Source: Polyangiaceae bacterium
Lineage (GTDB): Bacteria > Myxococcota_A > Polyangia > Polyangiales > Polyangiaceae
Assembly: GCA_019637265.1 (NCBI GenBank)
Contig: JAHBVY010000003.1
Span: 1-64,000, forward strand
Reading direction: 5' to 3'
Length of the DNA: 64,000 bases
Shown here: piece by piece, positions 1-53,618 of the stretch
How the letters are laid out: every line of letters starts with the position of its first letter
Numbering within the stretch: the first letter of the stretch is position 1
Notes under the pieces: model-generated
The model's input: only the letters and a program-made list of their open reading frames with translations
Told to the model about the DNA's origin: nothing
Database searches by the model: none
Translations under genes and position numbers: made by a program

Positions 1-1014
<1,014 letters not shown>

Positions 1015-46914: not shown

Positions 46915-47065
46915 CGCCCGCCACCTTCCCAAGGTTGCTCAGCGCGCGCAACGCTCGTTCGTCGCGAGGCCAGGCTTCGTGACGGCGCGTCGGTCGACCC
47001 GCGTTTCCATCCGCGGCGCGGCTCTGCTGGCGGCGAGTAAACCGGTGCTCTACCCTCACTCCGGC

Positions 47066-50000
47066 ATGAGAGCTGCTCGCCACCTGCGCTCGGGTCGCTC
47101 GCGCCGTGCACCAGCCTACCTGACGAGCTCGGGGCGCGTCCTCGCGTGTGCGGTGGGTCTCGTCTTGCTCGGTGGGTGCCAGGCGAGCGCGGGGTGGGCG
47201 GGCCCAGCGCCGACCGGCAGCGAGCAGCCGCGCAAGGCCAGCGCCAAGATGCGCGGCGGCGCGCGCATGATCCCGCTCGCGGAGCCGGGGGTGGCGAGCT
47301 ACCACGAGCCCTTGCCGGAGGGGGGCGCACGGCAGGTCGCCTACGGCATGCGCGTGCTCAGGTACCCTGACGGTCGCGTGCAAGCGGCCGAGCGGCTGTT
47401 CCCCGATCGTGAGCAGATCTCGGCGGCGGAGCTGCCGGCGCGGCTCGGCGGCGGGTGGCTGTTCTTCTCCACCTCCTCCAGCACGCTGTGGCACGCCGGC
47501 GACTGGCTGGGCGAGGTCACGGCGGTGGGCGAGCTCCCCTCGGACGTGGCGCAGATCATCCCGGGGTTCGATCGGGTCTACGTGCGCACCCGTCAGGGAG
47601 ATTTACTGGCCCTGACACCGGGCAGCTGGGCGCTCACGGATCTGGGCTCGCTGCCGCCCGCGCCGGGCTACAGCGAGCTCGCGTTCTTGGGGGAGTGGGT
47701 GGGCGCCGTCGCCACCGACCTGCGGGGCGTCATGGTCACGTTCGATGCCGGCGCGAGCTGGCGCTCCGTGCCAACCGCGCGGGTGCAGGGCGTGATCCAG
47801 GCGGATTCGCGCCAGATCGAGATCCACGGGAACCCTCGGGTGTACCTGACCACCGAGGGCGTGCAGGAGATCGATGCGACGGGGGGCGACGAGGGCTTCG
47901 CCGCGCTCGGCAGCTCGCCGATCGCGGTGCTCGCCGCTCAGGAGGCGCCGCCCCGCAGCGCGCCGCGGCCCGCGCCGCAGCCGCTCGGCGACACGCCGCT
48001 CCGCCTCGCCGCCCTGTACGGGATCTTGGATGAGCCGGGCGTCGCGCTGGTGCTCGCGGCGGGACACCTCGCGCGGGTGCGCTTGAAGGACGGCGCGCTG
48101 CTCGGCCTCACGCGGGACGTGCACCCTGGGGTGGCGCCGTGTCAGGGGGCGCGGGTGGGGCGCGGCGTGGGGTTCATCTGCGGTGACGCGGGCGGGCCGA
48201 GCGTGGTGTACCAGGTGAGCCAGGGGCTCACGCTGACCTCGGTGCTCCGCTTCGATGAGCCGCGCGCCATCTTGGCGTCGGGCACCGGGGGCCTGGTGAC
48301 GCGCGGCGAGTGCCCCGAGGGAGCCGCTGTTCAGGCGACGGATGACGCGCGCGGCTCCCAGTCCCCAATGGTCAGTCACTGCGTCCGTTCCGTGTCAGGT
48401 AAGCTGACGACGATCCGGGTGCGCGGCGACTACGGGGTGGAGCGGGTGGCGGCGCTCGAGGACGGGCGCGCGGCGGTGGTGGTGCCGCCGCGGCTTGGCG
48501 CCCTGGGCGCGCTGGTGTTGATCTCGCCGGATGGGCGCACCAGCTCGCGCCAGCTGCGCTTCGTCAAGGGGACTGACGCCTACCTGAGCACCTTCGGGAG
48601 GCGCGGGCTGTGGCTCGATGGCTTGGTGGAGCGCGCCGTGAAGCGGGACGGGAAGGAGCACCGCGTGCTCTCGACCTGGGTGAACGGTGGGGGCCCCTTC
48701 GTCGGCGTGGAGATCGAGCTCGACGGCAGCGTGCGCTTCGGGGAGATGGTGTCGGACGACACCGACCGGAGCCTCATCTCGGGTCCCGTGGCGCTCACCT
48801 TGGGGCAGGGAGGGCTGATGCGTGAGTCGACGGACGGCGGCATGACGTGGTTCGAAGCGGAGACGCCGGACGGGGTGGGGGAGCGGAGCCCCCTGGTGCC
48901 GGCCATCGGTAGCCCAGGGGGTTATGCAGCGCGCGGTTGCAGCGCGGTGGGCTGCGCGTTCGGCGCCTGGGTGCGGGTGGGTTGGCAGGGTGAGGCGCCG
49001 CGTGATCGCGAGGCGCGTTTCATCACGGAGCGCCCCAAGCCGCTGCTGAAGTCGCCCAGCTACTCGCGCTGGGCGTTCCAGTGCGAGCCGACGGGTGAGG
49101 TGGGCGGTGGCAGCTCACGACCGCTGGTCCTCTCCTCTCGGCGCATGGCCAGTCCGCCCGCCGCGCCCATTCCGCACGGATATTACGGTGCGCTGCCGCC
49201 CGTCGCTCAGCTGCCCTCCACCGCCTTCGCGCCGTTCCTCGGCGTCCCGCCGCCGACCGCGCCCAAGACCGCGCTCCGGCTCGACCTCGGTATCGAGCAC
49301 CCGAGCACCTCGGCGCGCGCCTACGCTTGGGGGTCGCGGAGCGACGAGTGGGCGCGCGACGGGCGCTGGATGGTGCGCGTGGAGTCGCAGTTCGACCTCG
49401 CGCAGCCCACCTGGGCCACGGCGGTCAGCCCCGCGGACTGGCCAGACCCCACGTCCGCAGCCCTGACCTTCGGTCAGCTGGCTCGCTACGGCGGCTACAC
49501 CAACTGGCGCTTCACCCCGGCGACCAGCGACGCGGCGGGGCTGCTCAACGTCACCGTGCGCGGCGGGCAGACGCTGTACTTACTCGAGGAGGGCAAGCCG
49601 CCCACGCGCCTCCGCGGCGATCTCTGGCCGCTCACCAACTTGGCCGGGTTGGTGCGGGTGGGCGGCGCTTGGTACGGCGGCTCGCTGGTGCAGAGCGAGG
49701 CGTTCACCGTGTACCGGATCGAAGGGGGTGAGTCGCGCGCGGTCGCGAGCTTCCCCATCCGGCGCGATCGCACCCACACGAACATCAGCCTGGTGCGGAG
49801 CGCGCAGGCGGACGCGTTCGGGGTGCTGGTGCAGGTGCGGGCGCCGCGAGTCGAGCCCTCGGCGGGGCAGTGGTACCTGTATCCGTTCGATTTGGAGCAG
49901 CGGCAGGTGGGCGAGCCGCTCGTCATCTCCGCGGAGCAGCTGAGCAACACCCCGCGGCTGTGCGGGGCAGAGGACGATGGCTGGTGGATCGAGGGCCCGC

Positions 50001-50221
50001 TGCCAGGGGCGCCGTATTTGAACCTGGGTGCTCAGCGCGGGAGCTTGATGAGCGCGCGGTTGATCGCGGACGCGGGCGGGGTGTGCGTGGCGGCGCTCGC
50101 GGCGCGCAGCTCGGACTCGCTCGGGGTGAGGCCGCAAGCAGCGGGGAGCACGCGTGGCGCTCACCTGACCCTCACCTCTCGCGACGGTCAGACCCGCTGG
50201 GGCTACCGCTGTCGACCCTGA
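47066..50221 (+). CDS. Large lipoprotein with predicted beta-propeller-type repeats
   Basis: 1051 residues from ATG 47066, chosen for its lipoprotein signal (GRVLACAVGLVLLGGCQAS); the frame opens further upstream without one. The body is beta-rich with BNR-like elements (VTFDAGASWRSVPTARVQG, and STDGGMTWFEAETPDG later), which are S-x-D-x-G-x-x-W Asp-box repeats of sialidase/sortilin-type propellers. It has no recognised catalytic residues. The codon use is typical of the genome. Probably outer-membrane associated; function unknown. It stands alone between divergent thyX and a 470-base gap. Confidence 0.72.
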   Translation: MRAARHLRSGRSRRAPAYLTSSGRVLACAVGLVLLGGCQASAGWAGPAPTGSEQPRKASAKMRGGARMIPLAEPGVASYHEPLPEGGARQVAYGMRVLRYPDGRVQAAERLFPDREQISAAELPARLGGGWLFFSTSSSTLWHAGDWLGEVTAVGELPSDVAQIIPGFDRVYVRTRQGDLLALTPGSWALTDLGSLPPAPGYSELAFLGEWVGAVATDLRGVMVTFDAGASWRSVPTARVQGVIQADSRQIEIHGNPRVYLTTEGVQEIDATGGDEGFAALGSSPIAVLAAQEAPPRSAPRPAPQPLGDTPLRLAALYGILDEPGVALVLAAGHLARVRLKDGALLGLTRDVHPGVAPCQGARVGRGVGFICGDAGGPSVVYQVSQGLTLTSVLRFDEPRAILASGTGGLVTRGECPEGAAVQATDDARGSQSPMVSHCVRSVSGKLTTIRVRGDYGVERVAALEDGRAAVVVPPRLGALGALVLISPDGRTSSRQLRFVKGTDAYLSTFGRRGLWLDGLVERAVKRDGKEHRVLSTWVNGGGPFVGVEIELDGSVRFGEMVSDDTDRSLISGPVALTLGQGGLMRESTDGGMTWFEAETPDGVGERSPLVPAIGSPGGYAARGCSAVGCAFGAWVRVGWQGEAPRDREARFITERPKPLLKSPSYSRWAFQCEPTGEVGGGSSRPLVLSSRRMASPPAAPIPHGYYGALPPVAQLPSTAFAPFLGVPPPTAPKTALRLDLGIEHPSTSARAYAWGSRSDEWARDGRWMVRVESQFDLAQPTWATAVSPADWPDPTSAALTFGQLARYGGYTNWRFTPATSDAAGLLNVTVRGGQTLYLLEEGKPPTRLRGDLWPLTNLAGLVRVGGAWYGGSLVQSEAFTVYRIEGGESRAVASFPIRRDRTHTNISLVRSAQADAFGVLVQVRAPRVEPSAGQWYLYPFDLEQRQVGEPLVISAEQLSNTPRLCGAEDDGWWIEGPLPGAPYLNLGAQRGSLMSARLIADAGGVCVAALAARSSDSLGVRPQAAGSTRGAHLTLTSRDGQTRWGYRCRP

Positions 50222-50690
50222 GGGCGGCTGGGTCACGCGGTGGGCTTCGTTGCGGTCCACGTGTGCGCGGAAGCACTCATCGCCCTCCTCCGCGTCGCCC
50301 CTGGCCTGAGTTTCAAACTTGAAAGGCCTATGCGGCGTGGCCATCGCGCAACTATGGGTAAGGTCGAGTCACCCTCACACCGAAGCGCCACGGAAGCACA
50401 GGTACGGAGCCGCGTGCTAGGGTCACCTCGGAAGAAGTGATGTCGAGCGACGAGAGTTGTTTGCAAATCCCCACGGGGCTTGCTACTTCCCCCTCGTCCG
50501 CGCGGAGAGAGGCTGTCCCCCCCGGCCCCTCTGCGCGGACTCTTAATTTCACCGTCTGCCGTTGGCTCGCTGGAGCCCGGCGCTGCGCGGTGGGGGATCT
50601 GAGTGGCGAGGTTGCCTGACGGCGCCCACCGACGTTGGATCCGGCCCCCTAGCCAGCTACGCTCCACCTCCCTGCTGCTTGGAGGTCTCT
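50222..50690. other. Intergenic region with hairpins (469 bp)
   Basis: No supported gene. A short AT-rich dyad TTTCAA-AC-TTGAAA near 50309-50322 flanked by GGCC on both sides may end transcription from the preceding gene. A stronger hairpin lies at 50496-50540. GGAGG at 50681-50685 is the ribosome site of the gene starting at 50691. Confidence 0.55.
50496..50540 (+). terminator. Strong hairpin followed by T-rich tract
   Basis: GTCCGCGCGGAG (50496-50507) pairs with CTCTGCGCGGAC (50529-50540) over 12 bp with one G-U, closed by a loop holding a run of seven C. TCTTAATTTC follows the 3' arm. It lies about 150 bases before the next gene. Could be a terminator for an unseen transcript or an attenuator in the leader of the gene at 50691. 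Confidence 0.45.
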
Positions 50691-53618
50691 GTGAAGCTTC
50701 GTCCCCACTACTGGCGGCTGACCGCCGCCGTGTCCGTTGGCTTGCTCTGTGCGCTGGCGGTGAGTTGCTCTGACGATGACGGTGATGGGGATCCAGGCTC
50801 GGGTGGCGCGGGTGGCGTGGCGGGCACTGCGGGCACCGCGGGCACGAGTGGCACCGGTGGGGTGCCGGTGCCGCAGCCTGGTGAGCAGTGCTTCGATCCC
50901 GATCCATCGCAGATCCGGCTCCGCGCGAATCCGCCGAGCCTCGTGCTCGCGCCGGGGCAGGTGCGCGATCTCGAGGTGGTGGTCGATCCGGATGTCTGCG
51001 ACGTCCGCGCCGTTCGCTTCGAGACCGGGGACGCCGAGGTCGCGGCGGCGCCCAGCGATCAGCGCATCGACTTGGTCACCCCCTCCGCCAAGGTGCGGGT
51101 GACCGGCGGCGCGCTGGGTACCACCGAGCTGAAGGCGCTTTTCCCGCGTGGAGATGACACCTACGCGGAGCTCGCGATCCCGGTGCACGTGTTGGACTCG
51201 GCGGTCCCCGGCTGCGCGGGGAGCGGCGCGGGGCGAGTCGACGACGGCGTCGTGATCTCGGGCACGGGCGGCCTCGAGCGGGCGTCGGTCGGTTACCAGC
51301 AGGGCGCCACCACCCCGAACCACAACAGCTACATCTGGTCGGTGTCGCCCTTCGACGCCACGCTCTCCTGCGCGTCGGACCAGGTGCCGAGCGGCTTCAC
51401 CAAGCTGGGCCCCGCGGTCAGCTTCGGCCCGGCGGATCTCAAGCTCCCTCGTGAGATCCCGTTTACCGTGCCGGCCAACCCCGCCGCCGTGCCGGAGGGC
51501 GCGCGCATGCGCCACGTCACGGTCTCCTACACCGGGCCCAACGCGCGAACGCCGCGCGTAGTGCCGGTGGGCGACCTCCGGTTCGTCAGGGACGGTGATG
51601 GTTACAAGCTCAGCTTCATCGCGCCCTGGCTGGGGACGTATCAAGCCGTGGTTCGCTCTGGCGACTTCACGCCCAAGAAGCGCCGCATCACTCACCGCGC
51701 CATCGTCGGGGTGAGCATGGGTGGCGGCGGCACCTCGATGGTGGGCCTGCGTAACCACCAGTTGTTCGACGTGCTGGCGCCGCTCGGCGGCCCGGTGGAG
51801 TGGACCTGGCTGCTCGGCCACATCCGGCGCAACCACGTCGGCGGCTTCGCTCCGAACGATGGGACGACGGCGCCGCCGTGGGATCCGACGCTCCCCACGC
51901 CTCAGCTCCCTTACGAGCACAGCTCTTCGTTCAACCGCTGGTGGTACGAGTACCCGCGCGCTGGCAACGGCGGTCGTTTCCCCAGGGAAGAGTACGTGCA
52001 GATCTTCCGCGACCTGGCGCTGATGTTCGGCAACCCCGGCGGCTACAACCCCACCCCCGGCGCTGAGAACCTGCCGGCGGGCGTGCCGCTCGATCACCCG
52101 AGCGTGGTGGGCGACCGCGCCAATCGCGAGTGCGCCGTGTGGGTCGACCCCATCTCGCAGCACCCGGACGAGGCGCGCCAGCGAGATCTCGCGCGGAGCT
52201 GCCCCTCGGAGCGCTGCGCGAATACGCTCAGGCTGACGAACTACTACGACGCGGACTTCAACCCGCTCGGCACCTTCCCCGTCATCAGCTTCTGTGACGG
52301 TTCGGAGCAAGATCCCGCGCTCTCGCCCTACGCGAACACCTGGAGCCCCATCGGGAACGATCGGCCGATGGAGCTCGCCTTGGCGGTCGACTACAACGAC
52401 AACGGGGTGCGCGACGAGAACGAGCCCGTCATCTTCCAGGGCTACGAGCGCTTCCGTGACGTGGGGGCGGATGGCCTCGCGAGCGTGGACGAGCCTGGCT
52501 ACGAGCCCGGGGTGAACGAGGACCCCGCTGGGGACGACTGGCACCCGCAGTTCAACCCCGGCGGCACGGAGGGCAACTTCCGCTACGACGAGGGGGAGCC
52601 CTTCGACGACTTCGGCCTCGACGGCGTGCAAGGCACCGCCAGCAGCCCTTACGACTTCGGCGAGGGCAACGGGCGCTTCGACTACGCCCCGGGGTACCGC
52701 ACCTTCCTCGAGCGCGACTCGCGCACCGTGATCGCCCAGCACCCCATGGCGACCCAGGCCCAGCCGCTCGACGCCGCGGCGCTCGCGCGCCTCGATCTAT
52801 GGACCGACGGCGGCACCCGGGACCTCTTCAACTTCGCGGTCTCCGCTCAGGCGCTGATGGGCGAGTGGCAGCAGCGCGGCCGCATCGTCCAGTACTTCAC
52901 GAGCTACGATAAGCTCCCAGGGCAGGTTCTCGGTAACGAGTCGGAGTTCGTCGCGGGGCGCCTCGCTTGGGAGGACATCCCGGGCGGCGTGATGATGCGC
53001 TACGGCGCCATCGACCCGACCCCGCAGGACATGGAGACGGGCTCCGGGCAGCACGTGGGCCCGGCGGATCAGGTGGTGCGGCGACTCCAGTCCGCCCTCT
53101 ACTACATCGGCTCACGTTGGCCCGACGCCCCGCGCGGCCTCAGCGAGGCGAGCCAGGTGGATCCGGTGCCAGGCGCGGAGCTGTGTGAGGTCCGCGGCGG
53201 CTGCGACTTCAACTTCACCGACTCACGCGGCCGCACCGGCCCCGTGAGCGTGAATTTTCCACCGGGATATTCCAACGCCAAGGCGCAGTACAAGCGCTAC
53301 CCCGTCATCTACATGCTGCACGGCTACGGCCAGACGCCTGAGGACCTCAAGGCCGCCATCGTGTTCCTCAGCAACTGGATGAACAGCCCCATCGACTCCA
53401 CCGGCACCCGCCTGCCTCAGGCGCTGCTGGTCTACGTCGACGGTCGCTGTCGCCCGGGTGAGGCCGGCGACGAGACGGAGTGCATCCGCGGCACCTTCTT
53501 CACCGACAGCGTGCGCGAGAAGGGCCCCAAGATGGAGAGCTGGTGGATGGAGCTGGTGGAGGAGATCGATCGCCGCTACCGCACCATGCCCCCCACCGAG
53601 ATCGACTGGGTGGAGTGA
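50691..53618 (+). CDS. Esterase-D-like lipoprotein with permuted-looking hydrolase halves
   Basis: 975 residues from GTG 50691, with GGAGG six bases before it and a lipobox VGLLCALAVSCSD. After a Gly/Thr linker comes a beta-rich region (to about 300). Then AIVGVSMGGGGTSM with the nucleophile-elbow Ser342, and WTDGGTRDLF with Asp705, elements of the second half of esterase-D/FrmB-type alpha/beta hydrolases. Between them are Asp-rich loops like calcium sites (DYNDNGVRDENEP). The first-half elements, YPVIYMLHGYGQ with His877 and LLVYVDGRC, appear only at the C-terminus, and the protein ends at IDRRYRTMPPTEIDWVE where the nucleophile strand would normally follow. Either a circular permutation or two incomplete copies. 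Confidence 0.6.
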   Translation: MKLRPHYWRLTAAVSVGLLCALAVSCSDDDGDGDPGSGGAGGVAGTAGTAGTSGTGGVPVPQPGEQCFDPDPSQIRLRANPPSLVLAPGQVRDLEVVVDPDVCDVRAVRFETGDAEVAAAPSDQRIDLVTPSAKVRVTGGALGTTELKALFPRGDDTYAELAIPVHVLDSAVPGCAGSGAGRVDDGVVISGTGGLERASVGYQQGATTPNHNSYIWSVSPFDATLSCASDQVPSGFTKLGPAVSFGPADLKLPREIPFTVPANPAAVPEGARMRHVTVSYTGPNARTPRVVPVGDLRFVRDGDGYKLSFIAPWLGTYQAVVRSGDFTPKKRRITHRAIVGVSMGGGGTSMVGLRNHQLFDVLAPLGGPVEWTWLLGHIRRNHVGGFAPNDGTTAPPWDPTLPTPQLPYEHSSSFNRWWYEYPRAGNGGRFPREEYVQIFRDLALMFGNPGGYNPTPGAENLPAGVPLDHPSVVGDRANRECAVWVDPISQHPDEARQRDLARSCPSERCANTLRLTNYYDADFNPLGTFPVISFCDGSEQDPALSPYANTWSPIGNDRPMELALAVDYNDNGVRDENEPVIFQGYERFRDVGADGLASVDEPGYEPGVNEDPAGDDWHPQFNPGGTEGNFRYDEGEPFDDFGLDGVQGTASSPYDFGEGNGRFDYAPGYRTFLERDSRTVIAQHPMATQAQPLDAAALARLDLWTDGGTRDLFNFAVSAQALMGEWQQRGRIVQYFTSYDKLPGQVLGNESEFVAGRLAWEDIPGGVMMRYGAIDPTPQDMETGSGQHVGPADQVVRRLQSALYYIGSRWPDAPRGLSEASQVDPVPGAELCEVRGGCDFNFTDSRGRTGPVSVNFPPGYSNAKAQYKRYPVIYMLHGYGQTPEDLKAAIVFLSNWMNSPIDSTGTRLPQALLVYVDGRCRPGEAGDETECIRGTFFTDSVREKGPKMESWWMELVEEIDRRYRTMPPTEIDWVE

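Follow-up and report, generated by a model that had tools for sequence, protein, structure and literature searches.

A natural circular permutant of the PF00756/CE1-type esterase fold in a Polyangiaceae bacterium

Can an esterase whose two halves stand in swapped order along the chain still form one enzyme, and if so, where does such a protein come from? The question is raised by a gene in the DNA window analyzed here, a stretch of 64,000 nucleotides from Polyangiaceae bacterium (assembly GCA_019637265.1, contig JAHBVY010000003.1, positions 1–64,000, forward strand). The gene occupies positions 50691–53618 and encodes 975 residues in an unbroken frame; like every other feature located below by window position, it lies on the + strand. 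It begins with a GTG codon at 50691, with a TGGAGG site ahead of it at 50680. A first-pass annotation had proposed that the nucleophile motif GVSMGG (Ser342, codon 51714–51716) comes early in the protein, that the motifs YPVIYMLHGYG (His877, codon 53319–53321) and LLVYVDG come late, and that the domain is circularly permuted. All three motifs lie where it had placed them. Sequence, profiles, structure prediction and homologues all agree that the PF00756/CE1-type fold of the esterase has been circularly permuted in nature.

The permuted half order is embedded in a longer, multidomain chain. A signal peptide that appears to end at a probable lipobox cysteine, Cys26 (AVSC; 50691–50768), can be read off the sequence, and the N-termini of relatives have a comparable hydrophobic stretch and a cysteine. 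An Ig-like (Big_2) domain follows (residues ~66–171; 50886–51203), which Pfam recognizes as Big_2 in 5 of the 30 members of the family (best E 1.2e-6) and which also matches Big_2 chains structurally at Z ~10. Next is a ZU5-like domain (residues ~176–326; 51216–51668) that matches the ankyrin ZU5 structure 4d8o (Z 10.7, rmsd 3.4, 127 residues aligned). The canonical second half of the esterase is placed first, starting with strand β5 and the nucleophile elbow (51672–51752), which correspond to residues 145–188 of 7xrt and to PF00756 profile positions 116–159. The secondary structure of the models then shows a cap insert of ~330 residues between β6 and β7 (residues ~372–700; 51804–52790). A linker (residues ~809–845; 53115–53225), found between the C-terminal helix and β1 in the models, bridges the two ancestral chain ends, running from the C-terminal to the N-terminal one. 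The canonical first half, from β1 to helix B, is placed last (53199–53576, corresponding to 7xrt 27–144 and 8z91 28–130) and contains the HGYG oxyanion-loop motif. A short strand in the model, residues 969–974 (53595–53612), lies at the C-terminal end.

Two profiles were used to compare the esterase with known proteins: A1, a 30-row alignment of the family, and A2, a 54-row alignment of the catalytic part, from which two truncated loci (L011, cut by its contig, and L082) and two duplicates of other loci (L031 and L033) were left out. In a PDB sequence search with the A2 profile, 7xrt residues 27–144 aligned with profile positions 481–620 and residues 145–188 with positions 12–56 (E 1.5e-16), a match well beyond chance. 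With the A1 profile, 8z91 residues 28–130 aligned with positions 796–911 and residues 132–163 with positions 274–305. The seam of the swapped halves thus falls between adjacent or near-adjacent residues of CE1 esterases (144|145 in 7xrt and 130|132 in 8z91), which means that, in a normal esterase, the counterpart of the C-terminal end of the permuted protein is followed directly by the nucleophile strand. This bears out the earlier suggestion that the C-terminal half stops just where the nucleophile strand should follow.

The arrangement typical of PF00756/CE1, a contiguous domain with the oxyanion half ahead of the nucleophile elbow, is found neither in the window esterase nor in any testable family member. 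In native order, the window esterase scores 22.1 bits with PF00756, whose cut-off is 22, through the nucleophile part alone (profile 116–159), while joining the halves in canonical order raises the score to 29.9 bits. PF00756 is matched by 29 of 30 family members at E 0.1 or better, and rotation turned the split matches into one contiguous stretch in all four proteins tested (6–152, 5–145, 11–157 and 2–143). Moreover, when the native order was compared by hhalign with two canonical esterases of the phylum (L084 and L035), the alignment fell into two swapped pieces (E 3.3e-11 and 2.1e-8), while the joined order gave a single alignment with the same myxobacterial esterases at E 7.8e-19. In the profile comparisons, rotations with the break placed at residue 450, 560 or 680 gave the same gain; breaks inside the insert also rejoin the old ends, so these are not negative controls. 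Head to tail, then, the two ends do make up one complete hydrolase, as the first reading had supposed. Its attribution to the FrmB/esterase D type did not hold, since among canonical proteins it is closest to the CE1 feruloyl/acetylxylan-type esterases (PF00756), namely XynZ (1jjf), BT_4077 (7xrt) and 8z91. These are the nearest sequences for both halves and share the GxSMGG and HGxG motifs, but they have the normal half order, have no comparably large insert and align to only half of the model at a time.

Structure prediction addresses whether the two halves belong to one fold. AlphaFold2 modeled the exported chain (residues 62–975) with a pLDDT of 90.7 and a pTM of 0.92. A fold search with the whole protein was swamped by matches to the Ig and ZU5 domains. 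Modeled and searched by itself for this reason, the catalytic part was predicted as one closed domain (pLDDT 92.8, pTM 0.93). Its elements, assigned by hand, run in the order β5, helix C, β6, insert, β7, β8, helix F, linker, β1–β4 and helix B. The top VIA-align match was the Penicillium PHB depolymerase 2d80 (Z 16.6, rmsd 3.6, 241 residues, model 10..641 on chain 30..338), and its S39A mutant 2d81 scored Z 16.4. XynZ (1jt2) was next best with Z 8.5, its match being confined to chain residues 162..284; the remaining half was matched by 8bbp (Z 7.5, model 470..645). Canonical esterases match halves: of the 1000 chains compared, only the 2d80 type, which has the same order, can be aligned sequentially over the full domain. 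Foldseek returned nothing below E 0.001 for the catalytic model, with best values of 8.9e-3 for 1jjf and 2d80. The AlphaFold2 run was made on a monomer and could itself have put swapped halves together, which leaves some room for halves that are distinct domains, or that pair between partners in a swapped dimer, in place of a true permutation of one fold; with one confident domain that overlays over its full length on a solved permutant, this reading is very improbable. Within the single permuted domain, residues 969–974 may pair with residues 328–333 to close the seam, as both segments are strands in the model.

The catalytic residues occur in the chain order Ser342, Asp711, His788 and HGYG (877). 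Ser342 is present in 53 of 53 A2 rows with a residue at that position, and both Asp711 and His788 are present in 54 of 54. The probable catalytic acid, Asp711 (DGGTRDLFN; 52821–52823), follows β7 in the model and the probable catalytic His788 (GSGQHVG; 53052–53054) follows β8, so that conservation and model strand order place the triad after β5, β7 and β8, as in other α/β-hydrolases. An acid loop had previously been assigned to the early part of the protein, but the acid actually comes after the insert. His877 is conserved in 49 of 54 A2 rows, and the other five have proline. The oxyanion hole is presumably formed by the residue after Ser342 together with the HGYG loop, as is usual for the family.

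The cap insert contains the Asp/Asn-rich, calcium-site-like loops of the protein. An Asp-rich region of about 500 residues had been described; it shrinks to ~100 residues (567–664; 52389–52682) within the ~330-residue insert. Nine acidic residues of these loops, D567, D590, D594, E601, D615, D640, D644, D655 and E658, are each present in 54 of 54 A2 rows, and the motif suggests that the loops probably bind calcium. According to the available text of a survey of the fold, α/β hydrolases often carry caps at the site of this β6–β7 insert (PMC11878206).

Taken together, the protein is very probably an exported serine esterase, probably anchored in the outer membrane, in which the two ends of a permuted PF00756/CE1 fold meet in one molecule. 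In this scheme, the catalytic chain would start at β5 with Ser342, continue through the large cap rich in calcium-type loops and then supply Asp711 and His788. After His788, the linker would lead to β1–β4 and the HGYG oxyanion loop, and the chain would end where β5 would otherwise come. With both chain ends meeting in one molecule, the usual Ser-His-Asp ester hydrolysis is predicted to work, presumably by the usual acyl-enzyme route, since the triad appears intact. Calcium would probably hold the cap in shape and the cap would restrict the substrate, while the Ig and ZU5 domains could serve as spacer or docking parts. Both the activity and the cell location are predictions, and the likeliest substrate classes, by analogy with distant relatives, would be esters attached to polysaccharides, or polyesters outside the cell.

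The swapped order is shared by homologues and looks inherited across the phylum. It is seen in all 28 of the 30 A1 rows that hold both halves; the other two, L011 and L032, are too truncated by contig ends to show it. It also occurs in 26 of 27 distant loci, in the sequence nucleophile, insert, acid/His and oxyanion half, and the cap insert is likewise present in 26 of 27. The sole locus with canonical order, L084, is an ordinary esterase without the insert. No canonical-order relative with the same insert was found among these 27 loci, which were picked from family profile matches and lean toward members, so that they offer no unpermuted ancestor with the insert from which the path could be read. 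The window genome and many of its relatives are draft assemblies of many contigs, a circumstance in which an assembly error, a frameshift or a gene fusion artefact might be suspected. The uninterrupted swapped order recurs, however, in dozens of separate assemblies at 28–73% identity with no internal stop, the frame being intact both in this gene and in its homologues of other assemblies, and this recurrence already refutes an artefact, for which there is next to no chance. Within the phylum, matches to the family profile occur in 134 of 377 genomes at E 0.001 and in 99 of 377 at E <1e-20. In the search for the family beyond its phylum, a scan of genome contigs returned three Polyangia loci, viral contigs gave no match to the family, and tblastn against plasmids gave just a 48-residue loop match in Nitrospirota.

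Some members depart from the common layout. L092 (593 amino acids), a weaker match, is a compact permuted relative in which a lipoprotein-like signal leads straight to the nucleophile strand, with no room for Ig or ZU5 domains, and it is useful for tracing the history of the family. Distant members including L067, L076 and L085 have an extra insertion in the C-terminal oxyanion half, which splits their profile match in two.

The same half order has a precedent. In PHA depolymerases whose catalytic domain is of type 2, the oxyanion hole lies on the C-terminal side of the triad (PMC2666664). The type 2 short-chain PHA depolymerases (NF050059; 2d80/2d81) resemble the esterase family in this placement of the oxyanion part and in the whole-domain match noted above. 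The authors of 2d80 are said to have described their structure as a circularly permuted variant. Natural permutations of this fold had been called unusual in the first reading; one with the same order was already known.

This precedent raises the possibility that the esterase family is a divergent branch of the type 2 depolymerases, with a single permutation event and the cap and ZU5 domain as later additions. The shared sequential order and the standing of 2d80 as best structural match by far (Z 16.6) speak for such a branch, but the sequences do not, and we consider it unlikely. Profile comparison of the esterase family with type 2 proteins gave nothing (probability 0.2 of 100; E 0.15–0.19), and each group aligns, once rotated, with a different canonical family. 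Two type 2 proteins showed swapped halves natively against type 1 depolymerases of the phylum and aligned in one piece when rotated (E 1.3e-23), while the esterase family aligns better with CE1-like esterases (E 7.8e-19) than with type 1 depolymerases (E 2.1e-8). In Pfam, type 2 proteins match only PF10503, the other canonical parent, and do so below its cut-off, while the esterase family matches PF00756. The two groups also differ in layout: the esterase-like calcium-loop cap and the N-terminal ZU5 domain are absent from the two type 2 members examined. NF050059 had no match in the window's own genome at E 0.001 and none among the NCBIfam matches of the 30 family members at E 0.1, and a search of the phylum at E 1e-40 found strict type 2 depolymerases in 0 of 140.

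A tree of joined halves gives a comparable picture. It comprises 58 rows and 224 columns from genomes of one phylum, with 20 of 54 permuted esterases, 12 of 17 type 1 depolymerases, 24 of 32 CE sequences (including L034, L035 and L084) and both of the type 2 sequences, which number just two. Five type 1 rows were left out when the motif finder failed, and the other omissions reflect thinning. The permuted esterase family forms one side of a branch with support of 100/99, and type 1 and type 2 depolymerases lie together on one side of another (100/98). Constraining the two permuted groups to form one clade costs 27.5 log units, with an AU p-value of 0.02, not far below 0.05. Profile comparisons, tree and AU test together suggest that permutation at this joint happened twice, independently. 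In the esterase family it most likely happened once, separately from the type 2 PHA depolymerases. It presumably arose by gene duplication and trimming; a DNA-level duplication scar was looked for and none was found.

Other permutations in this fold are of a different kind. In 3fle, 2z8x and 1lgy, according to the available text of PMC11878206, elements of the same α/β-hydrolase fold are permuted, but these are edge strands β1/β2 only, moved and reversed. In the window esterase, the cut lies beside the nucleophile strand, half of the sheet is moved and its direction is kept. Edge-strand permutations are the only kind named in the available part of that 2024 survey (PMC11878206), and a literature search, with subscription papers and preprints outside its scope, gave no account of this family or of any permuted PF00756/CE1 esterase in the text available.

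The evidence suggests that the family is a separate case from a CE1 parent. We consider it probable that the α/β-hydrolase fold has been cut and rejoined at least two times at one joint, where helix B meets the nucleophile strand, from different parents and each time yielding an extracellular esterase; that this joint is a permutation hot spot; and that the myxobacterial version, found throughout the phylum with its calcium-dependent cap and ZU5 domain, forms a new class of ester hydrolases at the cell surface, whose substrates may be polymers. For one of the largest enzyme folds, natural permutation right beside the catalytic nucleophile is rare. If there are two independent cases, it becomes testable why this joint tolerates new ends, and also whether being permuted makes it easier to accommodate large caps or to bring N-terminal domains close to the active site. 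Since searches in native order nearly miss the family, permuted esterases may also be under-annotated.

Upstream of the esterase gene lies a gene for an exported protein of 1080 amino acids (46979–50221, +), whose homologue is kept upstream of the esterase in relatives. Among 52 loci, such a homologue is found upstream, in the same orientation, in 14 other distinct genomes. The two genes are a conserved pair, and their products may work together. The only Pfam match of the neighbor is BNR, below the cut-off at E 0.01, and a sequence search against solved structures gave no meaningful match; the protein is perhaps a β-propeller.

Loops like those of the cap also occur outside the family. In L093, a frame at 744 (876 amino acids) contains a cap-like Asp-rich loop motif at residues 504–546, NPDPHGDDF...GTEGNGRFDEGEP, in what is, by our reading of its sequence, an LptD-like outer membrane protein. 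Compared with the esterase cap, the Asp-rich loop looks as if it were a mobile module. The plasmid match noted above belongs to L091, in which a hypothetical protein (WDT77981.1) encoded near pilM on a Candidatus Manganitrophus plasmid (CP114559.1; Nitrospirota) carries the cap loop motif with 56% identity over 48 residues.
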